Below are positions 50,871 to 62,105 of a stretch of 64,000 nucleotides of DNA, in pieces. The position numbers and the translations under genes are program-made. Positions within the stretch are counted from its first letter, which is position 1. Each line of letters starts with the position of its first letter. The notes beneath the pieces are model-generated. The model was not told the origin of the DNA and made no database searches. It worked only from the letters and a program-made list of their open reading frames with translations. Origin of the DNA: Gamsiella multidivaricata (taxonomy: Eukaryota; Mortierellomycota; Mortierellomycetes; Mortierellales; Mortierellaceae); NCBI RefSeq assembly GCF_025024155.1, contig NW_026251710.1:620001-684000 (forward strand), written 5' to 3'.

Positions 50871-53367
50871 TCAGCGGTAAATGAACTTCACACGGGTGTC
50901 GGAGGCGAGGATTTCGTCCATTTGTCTTACACTGCAGCCAAACATTGTGCATAGTTCATCATAATGGTGCCCGCCATTCAATAGCCTCTCGAAGGAGTAA
51001 CAGAGAAAAGACGATCAGCGGTCATGAAGACGTACGTGCTCGAGCCTGTATGAGATGATCAAATTTCTTCGCTTACTTTTTGAGAGCTGGGGGTATTGCG
51101 ACAGAAGCTGCAGGATGCTCATTTGAGTGGTGGTTTTGATAATGCAGGCCCTGGTTATTTGGTGCCATAGAATCACCGTACGTTTTCTTTACGGAGGCCA
51201 TTGTTGATGGTGTTCCAGGTCTGCTTGTGATAGCGGTCGCATTGCCTGCTGTGGCTGAAGGCGTTGACACTGCAACTGCTGAGGCCGGACTAGTTGCGGA
51301 TGTTTCTATTGACTTAGAATTGGATGATGCGGAGTTGATGCCCAATGCGCTTGCTGGGTCGTGGTAGTCCAAGATAGGATACTTGTGCACCCTATACAGG
51401 AATCCTTTGATAACACCGAACGAGATAAATCGTCTAGGATGAGAGAAAACCATCCCTTTGGTTTAGTCGAAAGGCCTATTTAGCTTTTCAAAAAGCGCCT
51501 CCTACGTGTAGTTCTGAGGGTAGTTACCGGACATCAATGTTGTAGTCTGCAATTTGATTCTGCTCAATCCAGTCCTGTAACACAACGCCGTATTGCAGTG
51601 AACAATAAAGCGAAAAGATCTTTGCGAATGAGGGGGCGTGCATATCTATAAGGCATAAGACGAAGCTAACAATTTAGACTTTAATAATTTAAACAACACT
51701 TCAGACATAACAAAGGCGGTTATCGGCGCATTACCTGGCAATGTCACATAAGAGACGCACTCGTTCTGCAGAGCCACATCTTCCGTCAAACGCATCATCT
51801 CCAGCTTGACGGCGTAGATGTTCTTAAATTGGAATAAGTCCACCATGATGATGCATCCGTAATACCTAAAGCATGCGGACAAAAAAAAAAGTCTAGTTCA
51901 CGTTACTCAACTAACAAACGATAGCCACATATGCACAGAGATTAAATTCAAACGCTGCTGCACATACAGGAGATGTTGCATGCACATTCTTGCCAAGGCG
52001 GTTTCTACGTCGGCATACTCTGCGATTCGCTTCACAGAGTTAACGCCGTTTATATACACTGTGATCCGCTGCATTGTCATATCCCAATTGACGTCCGCGA
52101 GCGCCTCCAGATTGACAGTGGAGATTGGAACCTGGTAATCGTATACCGGCGCTGGATTTGGATATGTCGGAAATAATTTCAAGTTGATTGTGTTTGCAGA
52201 ATCTAGATACAGGAAAATCATAATGATAACGCAAATAAGATAGAGCCATTGATATTCAAGGGGTTGTACGTCATGCCAGGCTACAGGCTTACCGATAGGG
52301 ATTTGACATTCACAATAGCTGTTAAGGTCCTCGATCAATTGCTCGATCAGGTTCTGCATCCCGCTCCCGTCGGCTTGCTCTTCCGCAAGCAGAGACGACG
52401 GTGATGGCATGCCCTTCTGTGCTGTCGTCGCAGATGAAACTCCGTTTGCAGCGCTAGTGGCACTATTCGAGTTGGATACTGAATATAGTTTTGATTGTGG
52501 AAAAGGCGACGATGATGGTGGCGCCGTCAAGACCAATGTGATGCTGCTGTTGGTTATGGACGGTGGCGAGGAGACGATTCCATTGGAAGTGATCGTGCTT
52601 GTTCCCTGCTGTGTCGTTTGTGGAACTGGTATAGGTGAAGCCGATTCCATAGGCACTGAGAGGCCACTGGAGGTTAAAAAAGAGGAAGACAGCGAGGTGC
52701 CATTGATAGTTTGCGGTTGTCCTAGTGCTGTGGTGGTTCCGTTTGCATCTGTGCTAGAAAAGCTGGCAGCCGATTCTGTTACCATTTCCAGGATGCCATT
52801 GCCGCTGTTACCGTTGTTTGATTGGATCAGCTCGGTCATGGAGGTTCCAACTGCCGCGGCTTTACCTGACGCAACGTTAGCCGCATGGAAGCTATTTGCA
52901 GTTGAAGCGACTGTTGCCGGTGTCGAAGGAGCGATTGCTGGGAGAGTCGCGTTCACCAATGATCCACTGCCCATCATCGCTAGTCGTGTTTGTCGACTCA
53001 AGAACTCACTCTCCTTCTCCAACGCCTTCAAGACGCGAGCCATTTTCCTGACAACGGGCTCGTAGGAGGATGTCTCGGCGTCCTTATCAAAGACAAACGC
53101 CAAGTTAAACATGAGCGCATTCCGCTGAAACTTCTTGTGCTCGAGGTTGACGGGAAATCCAATGACCTTGCAAGTCGGGGTCGAAATGGTAACGAGCTTT
53201 GAGCACAGCTCGACCTTGGGAATAAGGTACTCGGAGATGGAGTCGAAGTCAACAAGAGGCGAAGACTTTGAAAGGATCGATCCCTCTGGTACCTCGTAGA
53301 GCACCTTTGGCCCTTGAATAGGGTGGAAGGTGCAGTAAAAGATTGAGAGTAGTCGAGGGAACCCCAT
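50871..53367 (-). CDS. NPR2: Npr2 / NPRL2, GATOR1 (SEACIT) subunit
   Basis: Subunit of the GTPase-activating complex that restrains TORC1 under amino-acid or nitrogen limitation, acting at the vacuole. MGFPRLLSIFYCTFHPIQGP starts at the ATG 53367 and matches the conserved N-terminus; an in-frame ATG at 53490 would add 41 residues and is less likely. The longin-like domain continues through KVIGFPVNLEHKKFQRNALM and FVFDKDAETSSYEPVVRKMA. A long Ser/Thr/Ala-rich insert follows, then IEQLIEDLNSYCECQIPIG, YYGCIIMVDLFQFKNIYAV and RRFISFGVIKGFLYRVHKYP. The end is the winged-helix-like block HHYDELCTMFGCSVRQMDE, with TGA at 50873-50871. The large insert is a fungal feature. Several GT-AG introns; 3' end convergent with RPS28. 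Confidence 0.92.
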
Positions 53368-53494
53368 AGTGTCCTGATGCGCGATTAACCTGGCGACCAG
53401 GTTGGATGCATCATGGTATAAGGAAGTGTTAATAGATCGATCCATGCACGTGACGAAGCATGTACACGCCGTAGATCTACCCTCCGTCATCTCC

Positions 53495-53500
53495 GACGTT
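53495..53500 (+). repeat. Left target-site duplication GACGTT
   Basis: GACGTT directly precedes the left terminal repeat (GGGATCGCG...). The same six bases directly follow the right terminal repeat at 61055-61060. Six base pairs is short for a Mutator-like element (usually 8-11). Confidence 0.65.
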
Positions 53501-53588
53501 GGGATCGCGTGAATCGGACTACGACTAGCTAAAAAAGAATGAAGGGAAATAAGGCATCATTTATTGAGCAGGTCTCTTAGTTGATGCA

Positions 53589-56373
53589 CTAAAGCCTTGG
53601 AGGAGGCCACTGCTTCTTATTCATCAGTTCGACAATCGTGCGCCCATTGTTACAGAGCTCTTGCTCTGCATCCTCAAAGTCTCTCTTCCTCTGCTCCTTC
53701 CGCCGGTGTCTTTCTTCCTCCTCCCTCCTGGCCCTCTCGTATTCGAGTTGGGTGTAAACTTTTGGGTTAAGCACTGCTAGTTGGTCTCTGAGCGAGTCTT
53801 GCTCGAAGATGCCCGTGTCATTGTTGTTGCGCATGTTATCATTGTTGATGTTGTCGTTGGAACCATCGTTGAAGTCGACTGTCCGGTCCTCGATGATATC
53901 GGCCGACACAGACGGGCGAAGAAAGCGACTGAGCCAAAGGTCATGAAACACACGCTCAGCAAGAAAAATGTGCTTGCACGGAAGGGGTTCACGCTTGGTG
54001 AAGTCGAGGCATGAACATGAGAGGAGTTGCCCGGATCTGGCGATGACAACAAGGATATAATACCTGTCTGGAGTGTCGGGGTCAAATGACTGAATGGAGA
54101 TCTACACAAGAAGGGGAAGTTAAAGTATACCCCACTGTAAGTAACATTTGGCTAAGGCAGGCGAACTTGGAACGGTGCTCGAACGCAAAATGGTTGGTGA
54201 AGCCATACCCGTAAGCGTCCATCATCGCAGGGCTGGTCTCTGTTGTAATCAATCTTGCGTTGTGCCTCGTCGAACGAAACCTTGTCTGCTTTCTGTTTCC
54301 TCTCCACGTCCCCCTTTCTCCAGGGTATGGGTTGGAAGCCTCTCTTGCTCTTGAGATATGCGAATCGAAACTCTCTATCTACTCGATCCTGCAGCAAATA
54401 AACAAGCCGATCGACACGGAGATTCCGATCGCGACCAAGATGATCGCCCTTCAAACGAGCATGCCACGACTCTATCCAATTGTTGGTCGTGACAACTTGT
54501 CCATCCTAATGAAAAATAAGAAGAAATAAATGAAACAGATATATGAGTCAACCGGTGGTAGTCGTGATGATTGACATGGAAAGAAATTGAGGTGCACTTC
54601 ACCTCCCTGTGAAATAACGCCCATTTCTCCAGTCTTCCCTCCTTATTGAACCAGTTCTTCTGAATATAATCGATCACTGACGATGCGCCCGAATAAAGCT
54701 CTTTGAACTTGGCCCAGAGTGTCTGCTGCAACTCGGGTGATCTGGCTCTGCGAACCTCGTTCAAAAGGGGCCGCATCTGCTTCCTCCGTTCTTCCTGTGT
54801 GAATGAATGCAACACTGGTACTATGTTAGGTCATCCAGAATATTGTTCAAGCATGCCGCATGGCATCAGGCCATAAGAGGGAAGAAGATACCTACCGAGA
54901 ACTTGACCAACTGTTTCTCCCAGAGCTGACCGACATGAAAATCGCAAAAGTGGATCCTTGCTTCAGGAAAAACAGTCCCAATGGCATGAGACTCGGCCTC
55001 GGCACAGTCCACCATGAATGCATCCGTTTTCAAACCACATTCGTTCTTTAGCCAGTCCAACCACCGAATGATGGGATATCTAATGTGTGCAAAGGTGCAA
55101 AAGTAAAGACATGTTCAGTCAACTGCATGAAAGAATGACGCGCCACAACGGGCATGATACAGAAACAAAGTAAATACATACCGGGATTCGGACTTGCACG
55201 CCATGAAGGCGACAGGGATTCCTTGATGGACGTCCTTGTCCTTGACGAGTAGCGTGATCAAGTACACTGAGTTGTAAATCTTGCTGCCCTCTTCGATCGG
55301 CGTGATGTCCTTTGCCGTCTTGTGAGTCGAGTCCATGCAGTAGATAGTGGTGTTTTCGGGAATGACCTGGAACGACGAAGGAAAAGGCCATGGTGAGTAA
55401 TCTCGCATGACTGAGGAGGAGCCAGTGTGTATACTCAATGTAGAGCATGTATCACATTACTTTCAACTGAAATTTTGTACACCACCCATACGCGAATCCT
55501 GTCAATGTTGCATCCTCAACAAACATGGTCTTTCCACCCTTATCCTCTATCTCTCTGAACCAAAGCTTGACGCTCTTGACAACATCCTTGTCCTTCTGAT
55601 AATCCATCCTTTTTTTTCTGTAGAGTGCTTGTCGAACATGGTCGGTGTTGATAAATAGGCTGCCAGACACAACTCCTTTGGAACGACCATCGGCCGCATC
55701 CTCCATCTACATGGTATGAACAAAGGCATCAGATGTAGAAGTTAGCAAAAGAATGAGCTGTTTAACCTGTGTCTGGAAACAGGACACAAGTTAACTCTCT
55801 TATCGCTTGCAGGCTCTGTTCATCGGGTATGACCCTGCTCGACAGAGAGCACCAATCATGACCCTCATCCACCATACACCGAATCCACTCGCGCTCGTTC
55901 CGAGCAAGAGGCAGTTGTGCGCGATCATCACCATTATTGTGCTTCCACGTGTACCTAACTACCACTTTGCCCTCCTCCCCAACGGGCTGTGCCATGAAGA
56001 TCTGTGCCATGCAGCATTGACCCACTGACTCGCGCGGGAGAGAAACAATCTTTTCCTTGCGGTGGCGACGGCAGGCAAACGTGAGTCTCCAGGAGTACAT
56101 GGCCCTTGTGCCTGCAACCTGTTCACACGTTTTGAATGGAAGTGGGGATTCCGGATCATCTTTCTGACTGTAGAAGATGGAGTACTGATTTGGCCTATGT
56201 ACCCACAGGCCAGTTTGCCGCTCTCCCGCCCACCATGTGCGAAACTCGTCGCATGTAAGAATAAATTCCTTGGTGTTGGGGTCGTTGGTTGAGAATTGCT
56301 GAGATTTGTTGTTGATCTTGGGGTCGTACTTGCGGTCGACGATCACCACGTCCTTCAACTTGAGAACAGACAT
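53589..56373 (-). CDS. Mutator-like (MULE) transposase with SWIM zinc finger
   Basis: DDE transposase, probably mobilising the element at 53501-61054. ATG 56373 starts SVLKLKDVVIVDRKYDPK, followed by a zinc-finger-like N-terminal region (TCDEFRTWWAGERQTGLW). The next exon has KTMFVEDATLTGFAYGWCTK. The catalytic domain reads TIYCMDSTHKTAKDITPIEE (first Asp), LVKDKDVHQGIPVAFMACKS, RYPIIRWLDWLKNECGLKTD, AFMVDCAEAESHAIGTVFPE (second Asp), IHFCDFHVGQLWEKQL and TTNNWIESWHARLKGDHLGR (third acid, Glu). The SWIM zinc finger follows (SCSCLDFTKREPLPCKHIFL), then a charged coiled coil and the stop at 53589. Introns are mostly GT-AG and in frame; the join between about 55800 and 55706 could not be phased. 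No stop interrupts the identified exons, so it may still be active. Confidence 0.85.
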
Positions 56374-56517
56374 TAGATGGAGCAGATGACAGATGATATG
56401 AATTAGCTTTTTTTTTTGGTCGCGTCGAGCACGTGACTCATAAAGTAAAAGGACCACCTCAAACGCGCGATTTAGTCCTTGTTTCCACATCATCCTCTTC
56501 TTGCCCCTTTGATCACA
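56374..56517. promoter_or_regulatory. Divergent promoter inside the transposon
   Basis: Only 144 bp separate the start codons of the transposase (-) and nuclease (+) genes, so both must be driven from this spacer. It holds a run of T at 56409-56418 (+ strand). No TATA box stands out. Confidence 0.5.
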
Positions 56518-59500
56518 ATGGGCGTCAAGAACGCTTGGCCTTTTGTGCGCAAGAAGGGCAATGTTCCTGATGCCCAGCCCAAAGTCTCGCCCGTCTCACC
56601 CGAGTCCAAGATCCGCATTGACGTCTGCTCCACTCACAACACCCTCATCCGGCACCTGTACGGCAGCACCACCGACCTCAACACAGCGCATCTCAAGTTG
56701 GAGTCGTATCTCAAGAAGATTGGCGACAAAGCGCGAGTGCGGTACTACATCGACGGCGAGCCAGCAGTGGAGAAGAAGCAAACGCATGCGGACCGCCACC
56801 AACGTTGACAGCATGCTCTCGTCAAGGCCGCCACCGCCATCACCAAGCTGGAGAGCCGCCTTGTCACCAAAGAGCGCATCCGCAAGCACCACATTGTTGA
56901 TGCCTACAAGAACCTCCGTCAAGCATTCCATTGGCGCCTCGAACATCGCAGCTCTTTTATCGAGTACATGAGCAACGAGGGCTATGACATTGTCCTTTGT
57001 CCAACTGAGGCCGATGTGCTTATTGCCAGCGAGTGCCAGCCCAAAGACGCAGTCGTGTCCTGCGATAGCGACTTCCTTTTCTACAAGAACATTCCTACCG
57101 TTTGGCGGCCAGTGGGACCATACAAAGCCAGGCAGTTTGTGCCGTACGAGAAGGGTGCCTTGCTCGGGGACCTCGGTCTGTCAACGACGCAGCTGACCGC
57201 TCTGGCTATCCTCAGCGGAAACGCCTATATCAACAACATTCCTTATTTGGCGATCAACACCAATGCAAAACTTATCAAGGAGGTGAGCGACAAAGTATAT
57301 TGCCGGCATCACTTTCCTCCTATCAATCACGATTATTGCGCCCGTATCACTGAACTCGATTACTCTCCTCTTTTTCCTCTCTCTCTCTCTTTCCCTTTAC
57401 AGACGAGCGCAGCATCGTGCAACAATACCTCGCTCATCCTCGCGTCATACGGCAGATAAACAAGGAGGACGGAGACTGGACCAAGCACTCGTATGCCAGT
57501 GCATTCAAGGTGTTTATCGACATGAAGCAAGTCAAGGCTGAGTCTTCACCGTCAACTGCCATTGGTAGCGGCGCCGGCCACTCCGATGCTTCGGTCACGC
57601 CTCCGTCGTACGAGTTGCTCCAGGAACGAATGATGATCTTCATGCGCGCCTTCAATGTCTCTAAAACAGAAGCCTACAAGGCCCGAGTCGCGAAAAGGTT
57701 TGAATCTTCCCTCCCCTATTTCACCAGGTCAAAATTGCAACTGAGAGAAGAAAGCTGAGGATATACCTTCACCGACCGTGCTCACTCTCCCCAACTCACA
57801 CACCCCTTTCTCGCTTGTTGTCGATAGAGCCACGGCCACAAGTGCTGGATTGGACTCAAACGCAGAGCCAAAGCCGGTCAATCCCTTTGACACGCTGGAC
57901 AAGCCGGACCCTGACAGGAGCCACCAGTATCGCCCGCGCTACAGTCCCGAAGTCCGATTTGAGCCGTCCAAGGAGCAACCAGCACCAGCCATCTCGACAC
58001 AGTACAAGCTCAAGCCTTGGAAGGAGCCACCGGAGAAGCCAAGTCTACCAGAACCAACGAAGAAGAAACCTACGGCTGCAATCAAGACCGAGATCAACGA
58101 CGACAACCGCTTTGGACGCAAGGAGATGATGGATGCCTTGTCGTTCGAGCACCCAACAGTCACTTTGGACCTTGATCGCCTATCCAGCAACGTCCACGGC
58201 GCTGTCGAGGACGACCTTATCGCCAAGACCATCGTCGAATGCATTCGTGGTGCAGTCCGGGTGGCATGGGAGACCAAGAAGCGATGCCAGATGCTCATTG
58301 GCCTGTATCTGGAGGACCTCTTCTATCCTTCATCTTCACCTGGTGCCCCTCGCCCTGCAGTGCCCGTGACTGCCATAAGCAAGGACGACCAAGGTATTCT
58401 CGACAGCCTATGCCCTCGGCTCTCGTCCAAGGAGATGAACGGCGGCGGTGACGATGTCGGCCCTGCTGGGGACGGTCAAGACGATGGATCCAATGCGCCC
58501 TTCATCCGCTCTTTCCTCTGCTTCCTGTACTCGGGTAACCTGCCTGACAAGAGTAAGATCGGTTCAGCTGTCAACACCTTCATTGGTCGTCTACAGGAGA
58601 TGGGGCATCTGGAGAAGTCACAAGGGGCCAAAGCAGACACGCTCAAGAGTGTCAAGGATTACACGCCGACTTTTGTGGTTCGATCCGTCGCATCACAGCT
58701 GTCGGCCGAGCTGAAGAGGCATTACAAGCACGGAGCCAAAAAGTTGTCGGAAAAGGTAATGCACCGTATTCGTCATTTCTTACTTTTTTTTTCATTCTTG
58801 TCATCGATGTGGACAACAAAATCGAATTGAATCGCTCGTTTTCTATGTATTACCATAGGTTCAAACGATGATCAAGAAGGGACAATTGGAAAGCGATCGA
58901 AAAGTATATTTGACATCCCAGGAACCAGCGATCCAGGTTTTTGTGCGAGCGAATGCAACAACCGGCCGGCCCTGGCGTCTTTCGCCCCTGTCGTCGGAGG
59001 AGCATGGGTATATGACATTCACCGAGATCGAGCTGGCGGCCTTTCTGCACATGAGGGACGAGCTGCACCCTATCCTCAAGAAGCTCATTGGCTGCACGGA
59101 CCAACAGCGGCAGCTCACCCAGGCGGAGCTGACGCAAGACTGGCTCTCATTCCAGGCGCCGGGCGTGTTGATCCAGCGCCTCATTACCCCCATCGACCCA
59201 AGGACCCCTGATGGCGATCGCCTGCGTGGGCGACAGAAGAAGGATGCTGGTATCGTGGCAGCCGTCAAGGTTGTCGAGCCTGACGAGATGCGTGCCCATA
59301 TCAACACACTCCGCTGTGACGGTTTCGATCCCCGAAATTACCAGGAAAAGGGCTATTTCTTGCGCGGCTCGATCAAGACGAATGGCTATGGCTTGCAGCT
59401 TCTCGCACACAAGGTCCGCGAGCTGAACTCAGTCAAGTTCAAGCGGCACAAGACCGATGTTTTGCCAGATCGTCTGCTCACCACCACCGCCGGCACGAAT

Positions 59501-60906
59501 GACTATTTGACCGAGGTGCACAATGTCTTCAAGTCCGCGGCCGATGTTGAGCGCCTCCTTGGCTGCACCCTGACGACATTGACAAGGCGTCATACTTGGG
59601 CCTCGACCTAGGCCAAGCGTTCGTTGTCGGAGCGTACGGCCATATGCCAAAGGACAAGAGCCCCAAGATTGGCAAGCGACGCCGCCACCGGCAGCAAAAA
59701 AAGCGCGGCAGCCGAGGCCATCGCAAAAGAGGTAGCGGCAAGGGCAAGAAGAAGAAGGTCTGTCAAGACCGAGGCGAGCGGCATATCAACTTGGCAGTCA
59801 AGCAGAAAGCTGTCGCGCAACCCACTCACAGACATAGGACTTGGATGAATCGGCAGAAGGGCGCCGACTTGAAGATACACTCCAGCCCGTCGACCACCAA
59901 CACCGAGTCAACAGCACCATCAACGGTCAACCAGCCCTCAACCAGCAGCACGGAGGCAGCAACAACCGAGTCTCTCTCTATCTGCACGATTGAGTCGTCA
60001 CTCCCACCCCTCCGCGGTTCCGCCGCCGACTTCGCTGCTCACGTGCAGGGACGTAAGATGCACGAGGTCCATCTGGACAAGTTTTACAACGGCCGCCGAT
60101 TCAGGTCCAAGAAGTTCAAGCGGATGTCGCAGCAGGCTAGGCAGCGCGAGTTCGAATGCCTGGCAGACTCGCTCCTACGGATGATCGGCGGCTCCATTGG
60201 CGAGAAGAAGAAGGAGGAGGACAAGGTTGTGATTGGGATCGGCATGGGGCGATTCACCTCCAGTTCGGGATTATCGTCCTTGCATGGGACGTTCGAGGCT
60301 TACTTCATCCAGAAGGTAACTATTCGTCTGTTTATTGTGGGCTATTTGCAGTGCTCCAATCTAGCTACTGTTGCTAACTGACATATCCCTCGCGCTCTCT
60401 GTTATTCCATCGCGTAGGCGCGGTCGCTCGGATATCTCGTTGTTGGCGTGCACGAGTATTACACCTCAAAGAAGTGCCCAAAGTGCGAGCAGTTTGTCAG
60501 CCAGACCGAGAGCATTCGCCGCCTCAACTGCTCCCATTGCAAAAAGTATATGCACCGCGACGTGATGGCAGGACATAATATCGTCAACATTCTGCGCGGC
60601 CATGTCGAGCAGCAGCAGCGACCACTTTATCTGCATCCGGTCGACAAGGACGGCCACCACCCCTGGCTGGAGCTACTCAAGGACGCCCCAGATTCGTTGC
60701 AGCAAGCAAGCAGCAATGGTTGTCGTACTAGTCGTGCAGGTCGTGCTGGTTGCAAGCGCCAGGCAGAGGGGGATGGCGATGCCAAGGAGACCGGTGGCAA
60801 GCGCACCAAAACAACCATGGCCAAGCAAAAGGCAGCGACCACCAAGAACAAGGCGACCACCAAGAACAAGGCGACCACCAAGAACAAGGCGGCAGCGGCC
60901 AAGTAA
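56518..60906 (+). pseudogene. FEN1/XPG-PIN + Fanzor (TnpB-like RuvC) nuclease fusion, two disabling lesions
   Basis: Five exons: 56518-57282, 57408-57697, 57828-58755, 58859-60315, 60418-60906; about 1,300 residues if repaired. The N-terminus is a FEN1/XPG nuclease: MGVKNAWPF, IRIDVCSTHNTLIRHLY, VRYYIDGEPAVEK, PTEADVLIASEC, AVVSCDSDFLFY, then a helix-hairpin-like LSTTQLTALAILSGNAYI. After a Pro/Lys linker and an unknown domain, the TnpB/Fanzor part begins (GYFLRGSIKTNGYGLQLLAH). RuvC-I is YLGLDLGQAFVVGAYG (Asp at 59605-59607). A basic, NLS-like stretch follows, then VVIGIGMGRFTSSSG and VGVHEYYTSKKCPKC (candidate rearranged catalytic Glu at 60454-60456). The zinc ribbon is CPKC...CSHC, and RuvC-III is YMHRDVMAGHNIVNIL (Asp at 60559-60561). 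Lesions: TGA at 56806-56808 and a 1-nt frameshift near 59560-59570. No in-frame ATG precedes the RuvC-I Asp after the frameshift. Confidence 0.85.
60838..60891 (+). repeat. 18-bp tandem repeat x3 in the nuclease C-terminus
   Basis: Three exact copies of an 18-bp unit beginning ACCACCAAGAACAAG, encoding TTKNKA repeats of a basic, probably nuclear-targeting or RNA-binding tail. Confidence 0.95.
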
Positions 60907-60919
60907 TTGGCAGGTCGAT

Positions 60920-61032
60920 AGCTAGACTAGCTTTTTTTCACTTCGAGGTGCTCGCAAGCACCCTTGTCTACCTTCGGGTGGATTTAGATAGCTGCGCAGG
61001 CCGATGATTTCACCTTTTCGGTGACGTCATCG
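60920..61032 (+). ncRNA. Candidate omega (guide-scaffold) RNA region of the Fanzor-like gene
   Basis: Starts 14 bp after the nuclease stop codon and runs to the right terminal repeat. It can form four stem-loops in a row: AGCTA-GAC-TAGCT (60920-60932) followed by a T run; GGTGCT-CGCA-AGCACC (60947-60962, perfect); TCTACC-TTCG-GGTGGA (60967-60982, a C(UUCG)G tetraloop with one G-U pair); and CGATGA..TCACC-TTTTC-GGTGA..TCATCG (61002-61032, 11 paired bases around a small internal loop). In TnpB and Fanzor systems the guide RNA comes from the 3' end of the gene and the transposon's right end, with the guide read from flanking DNA. Expression is unproven. The T run at 60932-60938 would stop Pol III if transcription began upstream of it. 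Confidence 0.5.
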
Positions 61033-61054
61033 TAGTCCGTTGCGCGGATGTCCC
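61030..61054 (-). repeat. Right terminal inverted repeat of the MULE-Fanzor element
   Basis: Read on the - strand it begins GGGACATCCGCG and ends CGGACTACGA, matching the left end (53501-53524) with a few indels. It overlaps the outer strand of the last stem-loop by three bases. Confidence 0.75.
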
Positions 61055-61060
61055 GACGTT
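61055..61060 (+). repeat. Right target-site duplication GACGTT
   Basis: Second copy of the six bases found at 53495-53500, directly outside the right terminal repeat. Confidence 0.65.
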
Positions 61061-61142
61061 GAGCGAACCATTGTTTACCAGATCAACGATCAGCACTCAA
61101 ACCGACACACATCTAACATCAACACCACACAGCAACAACAAC

Positions 61143-62105
61143 ATGTCTGACTTTGGAAGCTACGGCGGCAGCTCTATGGTGCGTGCTTCAGAAACTGTTT
61201 CTGTTCTATGTTGTTTCTGTTCTATCCGAATTCGCCAGTCGATTGGCAGGTTCAGCGGATCTTGTCAGGAATACGATCGGAAGCAGCCGCATACTTGATC
61301 TCGGACTTATGTACTAATGCAAGGCAATCATTCGTTCTTTTATCGACTCTGCATTCAATGGCCGAACGTTATCAGGAGGCCAAGAAGCAGCAGGTTATGG
61401 ACCAGGTTCGCAGCGAACTTGCCCTTGCCAACGCTCAGGAGTTGATCAACGTACGTATTCGGATGCATTCTCTGCAGACTATGCGGAACGAACTTTAGCA
61501 CAAACATAGTATGCAAGGACAGGGGATCTCACCTTCATCTGGGGACGGTTCGATGTTTACTTTTAATAGAAAATCAATGAGAAGTGCTTCGCCAAGTGCG
61601 TCCCAAAGCCCGGTCCTAAGCTGAGCGGTGGAGAACAGGTGCGTATCTTGCGAGTGTCTCTTGATAAATGCATCTTTTGTATGACCATGAGCTGACCAAT
61701 TGCATTGTATAAAACGCTTCCTCACCTGCCGACTCCTTCTTGAACGCGCCCAATTATTACAACCATAACGACGACTAAAACGCGACAACTACTCCAATTG
61801 AACTATAACGACTATAACAACCACGACTACTGCATCAATTATAATAACTGCATCAACTGCACCAATTGCAATAACTGTACAACGACCACAACGACTGCAA
61901 CAATAACGTTATTTACTGCTCTACAATGTACCTGCGGATACATTGGGGTCGTTGTTAACTGCAACATTCGACGCTTACATCCAAACAGGACTGTCTTTCC
62001 AAATGCATGGATCGCTACATGGAGGCATGGAACATCGTCTCTAGGACCTATATCAACAGAGTCCAGCGCGAGTCGCAGAACATGGGAGGTGCCGGTGGTC
62101 TTTAA
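61143..62105 (+). CDS. TIM13: Mitochondrial intermembrane-space chaperone Tim13
   Basis: Small Tim chaperone that, with Tim8, escorts hydrophobic precursors to the TIM22 translocase. Exon 1 ([12 protein letters not shown]) is joined to [25 protein letters not shown]. The next exon reads [23 protein letters not shown], and the last [38 protein letters not shown] with TAA at 62103-62105. The twin CX3C motifs (CFAKC and CLSKC), which form the two disulfides, are complete and at the normal spacing. All joins are GT-AG and in frame. The third intron (about 61640-61989) is long and contains AAC/ACT-rich low-complexity sequence. The start lies 83 bp from the transposon insertion, so its promoter was probably split. 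Confidence 0.95.
61738..61912 (+). repeat. AAC/ACT-rich low-complexity tract in TIM13 intron
   Basis: Degenerate runs of ACG/ACT/AAC/AAT trinucleotides, open in one frame but encoding only Asn, Tyr, Cys, Thr and Asp. It lies wholly between a good donor (CAG|GTGCGT) and acceptor (AAACAG|GACTG), so it is intronic. Confidence 0.75.

Follow-up and report, generated by a model that had tools for sequence, protein, structure and literature searches.

We analysed a 64,000-nt stretch of the genome of Gamsiella multidivaricata (the window; bases 620,001-684,000 of contig C93, in a genome of 37.5 Mb). It contains a transposon of the Mutator-like element (MULE) type with two divergent genes, namely a transposase and a broken five-exon gene that begins as a FEN1/XPG-type PIN nuclease and ends as a Fanzor1-like, TnpB-derived nuclease (Table 1). 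A sequence-only reading had placed this element at 53501..61054. One element does lie there, and its limits are refined to those of Table 1 because the right end is base-for-base common to copies with unrelated flanks, together with the left repeat. The paired terminal repeats of that reading are present, with ten consecutive matches (CGGACTACGA) within the pair. A perfect 9-bp target-site duplication, which together with terminal inverted repeats characterises the Mutator superfamily, adjoins both the window element and a second element of the same genome, L040. The divergent MULE transposase was likewise recognised correctly. Judged by its profile matches it is a divergent member of the family: the joined pieces give an E value of 3.3e-5 for PF10551 (24.7 bits, with a Pfam cut-off of 27.6) and 0.015 for SWIM, likewise under its cut-off, and the Pfam scan of the window's own pieces gives 4.6e-5 for MULE, again under the cut-off. 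About 145 bp separate the two genes if the Met near 56373 is the transposase start.

Table 1. Features of the element, in window positions.
Feature	Position	Strand	Remarks
Complete MULE element	53502..61052	.	7,551 bp; right end common to other copies with unrelated flanks; 9-bp duplication
Left target-site duplication, CCGACGTTG	53493..53501	.	
Right target-site duplication, CCGACGTTG	61053..61061	.	
Left terminal inverted repeat	53502..53526	+	ungapped match to right repeat at 15/25 positions
Right terminal inverted repeat	61028..61052	-	
MULE transposase gene with introns	53589..56373	-	joined pieces match PF10551; start and exon limits approximate
Exon 1, FEN/XPG-type PIN nuclease	56518..57282	+	in-frame TGA 56806-56808; 3' limit 57282-57295 uncertain
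Exon 2, end of PIN part	57403..57697	+	
Exon 3, linker	57828..58755	+	without Pfam match
Exon 4, REC/WED-like region, TDG motif, RuvC-I	58859..60315	+	frameshift between 59557 and 59596
Exon 5, relocated catalytic Glu, zinc ribbon, RuvC-III HRD, basic tail	60418..60906	+	PF07282, E 7.4e-10
Candidate right-end guide (omega) RNA scaffold	60920..61052	+	predicted stems take in the terminal repeat

The fusion gene had been described as one spliced frame with two named exon joins. A PIN-to-RuvC gene can indeed be drawn from the ATG at 56518, with five exons and four introns, and it is not open here: exon 1 contains a stop codon, exon 4 a frameshift, the donor of intron 1 is unclear, and Ala stands at the last catalytic Asp of the PIN part. 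An open PIN-RuvC frame is visible only in predicted proteins of other fungi. The window copy is dead, and there are intact homologues.

Past selection on the gene can be followed with L019, an independent copy that has lesions of its own and is 79% identical to the window over 5.3 kb, much closer in the 3' part. The ratio of nonsynonymous to synonymous substitution rates (dN/dS) between the two is 0.21, 0.19 and 0.21 in exons 1, 2 and 3 and 0.20 in exon 4 up to 59290, against 1.2, 1.65, 1.38 and 1.46 in four controls read in shifted frames, of which exons 1 and 3 supply two each. The values 3' of 59290 are 0.25 and 0.27 on a dS of 0.12; that of exon 5, 0.99 on a dS of 0.02, is uninformative because there are too few changes. 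All four gaps between the copies in exons 2 and 3 have lengths divisible by three; this holds neither for the gaps in introns 1-3 nor for those in exons 1, 4 and 5, the latter being consistent with the lesions. Near 59290 dS falls from about 0.7-2.3 to about 0.02-0.12, as if two different copies had been joined by recombination or conversion.

At least 41 homologues of the full-length fusion were found (E <= 0.001; scoring covered the 7,999 candidates with most words in common), at 29-85% identity and all with genus names that we take to belong to the Mortierellaceae. We aligned 40 of them (alignment A2, without P0041; A1 holds 22), and in 19 of these 40 a PIN part of at least 230 aa and a RuvC part of at least 300 aa occur in one predicted protein. 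The domain order of the sequence-only reading recurs in other Mortierellaceae, down to 29% identity. Simple patterns detect the PIN E-[AS]-D motif together with the Glu, zinc and HRD motifs in 17/41 homologues, and in 10/41 a Met-Gly start, NDY and TDG as well; many of the remaining models are labelled partial. PIN and RuvC distances correlate (r 0.587 over 171 pairs; none of 999 permutations as high), and a single profile of the 40 homologues matches both RAD2 (1.7e-11, positions 44-252) and LaTranC (0.005, positions 1073-1121). Searching with the RuvC half (8,000 candidates scored) gave at least 94 proteins; the organism-named matches listed are from Mortierellaceae except for P0120 of Umbelopsis ramanniana, a 791-aa model that begins in the linker, lacks the PIN part and had no useful match in the Protein Data Bank (PDB). 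From these comparisons we are confident that the PIN-Fanzor fusion is real and conserved, and they support a single polypeptide, about 1,300 residues long, that has an N-terminal PIN nuclease of the FEN1/XPG/Rad2 type and a C-terminal TnpB-derived RuvC/zinc-ribbon nuclease.

The XPG-type motifs noted earlier are present, although the scan of the window's pieces puts XPG_I under the cut-off (E 0.0036), and the identity of the PIN part is settled by a profile of six sequences (A4). Against PDB sequences A4 matches RAD2 at 9.4e-11 with the acidic residues aligned, and also XPG, FEN1, EXO1 and GEN1. Met1, Gly2 and seven acidic residues, presumably equivalent to those of FEN1 numbering, are kept in all six sequences, as in the FEN1/XPG/Rad2 group. 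Among the homologues in which the columns are present, the acidic residues are found at D35 in 20/20, D79 in 24/24, E164 in 28/28, D166 in 29/29, D183 in 27/29 (Asn in the other two), D185 in 29/29 and D236 in 33/35 (absent in two). PF00867 also stands in the precomputed database annotation of three homologues among the best 24 of the 41. Besides the fused copies, genome G000 has 12 stop-free frames of 332-501 aa that are 25-28% identical to the PIN part, and no RuvC partner was found for them (examples are L048:393-1436 on C139, C115:481622, C175:88518, C126:115209, C24:10542 and C113:52652). The one that was read, L048, encodes 347 aa of the same PIN type. These frames may represent a stand-alone source of the fused PIN.

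In the second half, the OrfB/TNB zinc ribbon claimed earlier is present: Cas12f1-like_TNB is over the cut-off in the window's own pieces (Table 1) and in 7/7 homologous proteins scanned. A RuvC profile (A3) matched LaTranC, which is TnpB-like (1.3e-5), the TnpB-like L79 (1.2e-4) and Cas12 proteins among PDB sequences; its matches to SpuFz1 (0.66) and GtFz1 (1.2) are without significance. The Fanzor1/TnpB superfamily pattern given in the accessible part of PMC3627910, D-X-[TS][TS]XX-[C4 zinc finger]-X-RD, is found in the family, with the RuvC Asp in 38/38, the zinc Cys residues in 27-30 of 30-32 and the HRD Asp in 27/28 where the columns are present, and the window copy reads TSKKC. The catalytic Glu, which in this superfamily is relocated to six residues before the first CxxC (PMC10711439), occurs in 30/32 homologues (E1171, with C1178, in the homologue P0001). 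Also conserved is the TDG motif typical of the Fanzor1 WED domain (PMC10711439), at T851-D852-G853 in a putative WED location: T in 36/39, D in 33/39 (N in 6) and G in 39/39. The RuvC-I D-x-G motif varies in the family among DLG, DPG and DGG. These motifs, together with the candidate right-end guide RNA described below, support a Fanzor1-like identity. The RuvC-III/zinc-ribbon region is also related, at 33-40% identity, to TnpB-like frames of 392-429 aa on five viral contigs (L049-L053); these differ in that none of the five loci has a PIN or linker match at E <= 0.1. A tblastn search of phage records with P0001 gave no match.

We compiled 46 RuvC loci by hand from searches of the same genome; some limits are approximate, and short end pieces (C105:273k, C131:216-217k and extra pieces on C121) were omitted. 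In 29 of the 46 a same-strand PIN part lies no more than 5 kb upstream, the distance being 1.42-1.84 kb in 22 of these. The sequence-only reading had held that PIN and RuvC parts found always as separate genes would speak against a fusion; neither these pairs nor the joined homologues fit that picture. L040 is a second complete, divergent element of the same layout, with a 9-bp duplication (GCTTGGATG) at 487 and 8236 and terminal repeats GGAAGCAGGACTTTTCAGGCGTAAAC and GAATCCAGTGCATTTCGGGCGTAAAC. Its transposase exons are 28-48% identical to those of the window, and its PIN-RuvC gene shows 46-54% identity to the homologue P0022 and 33-38% to P0001 in the PIN and RuvC halves. Firm ends with a duplication on both sides were obtained for the window element and L040 only. 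The two ends of L039 carry similar repeats, but no duplication adjoins them; one near-match (8 of 9) lies inside its left end. The flanks of L018 differ between its two ends.

A transposase related to that of the window stands head-to-head with the PIN start in 6/12 loci with a readable PIN start (window, L019, L023 with the PIN mostly deleted, L030, L040 and L043); none was seen in the examined stretches, some of them short, of L022, L024, L026, L031, L039 and L041. L039 carries a left-end remnant of an L040-type element. The two left ends (L039:3337-3974 and L040:521-1151) are 92% identical and the PIN-Fanzor genes 65-75% identical in DNA, and modules seem to have been swapped between elements. 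Between its divergent genes L040 has 46-nt arms that are 91% complementary and lie 27 nt apart (L040:3693-3811).

The right end of the window element (60930-61054) has a predicted fold of -49.9 kcal/mol (z -4.55; 0/200 shuffles as good), and the two strands of its left end give z -0.07 and -0.17. When the terminal 110 nt of 11 right ends are compared, several of the ends being placed by eye, folding is strong in the window (z -4.32), L022 (-3.93), L040 (-3.71), L031 (-3.18), L043 (-2.79) and L041 (-2.74), and weak in L027 (-1.78), L026 (-1.59), L039 (-1.49), L028 (-0.85) and L030 (+0.04). The 110 nt outside the right ends give -0.9 to +1.31, and two left ends -0.65 and -0.08; composition as the cause of the fold is countered by the shuffles, the outside flanks and the two left ends. 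The terminal repeat is predicted to pair with the sequence just upstream in four copies (window, L022, L040 and L031). A first hairpin recurs with changed letters. For it, eight of a set of 11 right ends that includes L023 were cut by hand to 7+6+7 (L023, L028 and L031, without a clear hairpin, were omitted); 92.9% of cells pair, and 4/7 pairs are changed on both sides. This covariation score is reached by 1/500 shuffles, a control that does not remove relatedness.

A fold scan of 16 copies (30 shuffles for each scanned segment) placed the best fold of the window copy 30 nt past the stop (z -4.0). The peaks lie further out in L039, L040 and L023, inside the coding sequence in L031 and L030 and outside the element in L019; L042 showed none (-1.2). 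Rfam gave no match in 60850-61200. Divergent copies share a similar TAG-TTA-CTAG-TTTTT stretch after the stop (window 60919-60936, L022:6618 and L028:4515, both on the minus strand, and L040:8116), which may mark the start of a right-end RNA. Some of the conserved right-end letters may be due to a transposase site, since the ACGTCA stretch is also found in the left repeat of L039. Fanzor1 guide RNAs consist of three stems that take in the repeat and the duplication (PMC10711439), the first stem being 7 bp in the accessible text of PMC11423790, and the predicted fold and its compensatory changes agree with this. We regard it as probable that the protein is a Fanzor1 with a guide RNA.

The best explanation of these features, to which we assign a probability of roughly 0.6, is a MULE transposon carrying a transposase and a dual-nuclease Fanzor1, the PIN of which would cut the flank of the R-loop distal to the target-adjacent motif (TAM). 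The comparisons support one coding unit, retention of both active sites in the family and a structured right end that includes the terminal repeat. In the proposed scheme an RNA from the right end, running into the flanking DNA as guide, would load the Fanzor half; a guided R-loop would open at matching sites, such as an allele without the element or a donor site that has been resealed, and RuvC would cut there. In an R-loop of this kind the displaced single strand runs 5' into the duplex on the TAM-distal side, and this is the polarity that XPG and FEN1 cut. Purified XPG cleaved the 3' flank of R-loops and left the 5' flank largely untouched, according to the part of PMC7286691 available to us (citing Tian and Alt 2000). 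Given this polarity and cleavage, it is at the TAM-distal junction of single strand and duplex that the PIN half would cleave or trim the displaced strand. With two nucleases acting on the same R-loop, the product would be a gap or a long overhang; repair from an element-bearing template would be favoured, and the transposon would be kept. This benefit is suggested by analogy with TnpB and with a proposal for single-stranded-DNA transposons in the accessible part of PMC10432273, and a MULE is not one of these. That the PIN acts on guided R-loops we hold as a tentative view, a little short of even odds; the same caution applies to a natural two-blade RNA-guided nuclease, in which different active sites would cut the strands and the gap would channel repair into copying of the transposon.

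Several observations weigh against the dual-nuclease explanation. The window copy and L019 are both broken, and MULE duplications vary in sequence, which may be hard to fit into a TAM-plus-guide scheme. No PIN accompanies 17 of the 46 RuvC loci, for which a class of PIN-less Fanzors was considered. Those on C12, C62, C121 and C129 adjoin a contig end (the C129 linker match starts at base 341) and L018, L020 and L021 are deletion or end copies, whereas ten have neither explanation; among these, L027 has neither PIN nor linker, L028 and L029 have the linker without the PIN, and L046, 3 kb upstream of a C131 RuvC locus, again has neither PIN nor linker. In five of the 11 right ends the predicted fold has a z of about -1.8 or weaker. 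In the Pfam scans, XPG_I matches 5/7 proteins at E 7.8e-5 to 0.024, under the cut-off, and the NCBIfam matches of P0001 (fen_arch 1e-5, guided_TnpB 1.3e-5) are both far under the curated cut-offs.

It is also conceivable, if unlikely, that the PIN half has its role in MULE transposition itself or in gap repair, without RNA guidance, acting on flaps at the element ends or the excision site, and that the fusion merely keeps it with the element. The head-to-head transposases fit this, but it leaves unexplained why the PIN is joined to Fanzor and not to the transposase, and why the right end is structured. A role of the PIN half in maturing or trimming the guide RNA appears improbable: guide RNAs of TnpB and Fanzor are cut out of longer transcripts and PIN-fold enzymes include RNases, yet the PIN profile matches the DNA structure-specific nucleases RAD2, XPG, FEN1, EXO1 and GEN1. 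Characterised Fanzor1 proteins, moreover, function without a PIN in the accessible parts of PMC10432273 and PMC11423790.

The fusion itself could be an artefact of gene prediction joining two neighbouring genes. The Mortierella claussenii annotation splits the halves (P0143 and P0046, neighbouring locus tags), and the PIN-half search gave 45 proteins without a RuvC part. However, the PIN-only models that were read end near exon ends (P0131, P0139 and P0161, with tails that are possibly intron read-through) or inside the linker (P0134 and P0143), the linker is under the same selection as the halves, and the 19 joined homologues stand against separate genes; we consider an artefact highly improbable. 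Hardly credible, finally, is a PIN half that is vestigial or limited to DNA binding. The window copy lacks one catalytic Asp and a few homologues are altered at D183 and D236, but apart from these cases the family retains its acidic residues over a divergence down to 29% identity.

The dual-nuclease element resembles several known systems and differs from each. Fanzor1 is found in the MuDR-type elements ROr-4, PBl-3 and MCi-4 of Rhizopus, Phycomyces and Mucor (PMC3627910, accessible part), which are like the present one in being fungal, with MuDR-like repeats and 9-bp duplications. They were reported without a MuDR transposase, whereas the window element has one, and that part of the account does not mention a PIN domain, in contrast to the nuclease of the fusion. 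With SpuFz1, GtFz1 and PpFz1, as described in the available portions of PMC10432273 and PMC11423790, the fusion shares the D-E-D RuvC with Glu beside the TNB domain and, as a candidate, the right-end omega RNA with a 7-bp first stem. Most Fz1 proteins have 600-700 aa (PMC11423790); PpFz1 is the known size exception in these sources, and its RuvC insertion binds cyclophilin and is not a second nuclease. Since Fz1 is common in fungi incertae sedis (PMC10432273), Mortierella members may sit unremarked in the tree of that paper, as far as its accessible part goes. The PIN part shares the N-terminal Met-Gly, the seven acidic residues and an XPG_I-like region with Rad2, XPG, FEN1, EXO1 and GEN1 but, unlike these, has an RNA-guided nuclease as its fusion partner and resides on a transposon. 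In the accessible text of PMC11071296, one sentence without detail names 'Fanzor flap endonuclease homologs (Fendons)' in large DNA viruses. In the open-access literature, supplements aside, we found no description of a PIN/XPG-Fanzor fusion.

In Cas12, TnpB and Fanzor one RuvC site produces the double-strand break, and these enzymes depend on fraying of the R-loop flank. If our explanation is true, a conserved fusion to a class of nucleases that attacks this flank would mean that eukaryotic transposons have added a second blade. The element retains its own transposase, which would offer a direct way to test what service Fanzor renders to the transposon, and, as a compact tool provided by nature, the fusion could be used to produce gaps or long overhangs.

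The element is inserted between two genes, one at 51907-53490 on the minus strand and the other from 61143 on the plus strand, and lies near the starts of both. These genes look like NPR2 and TIM13.

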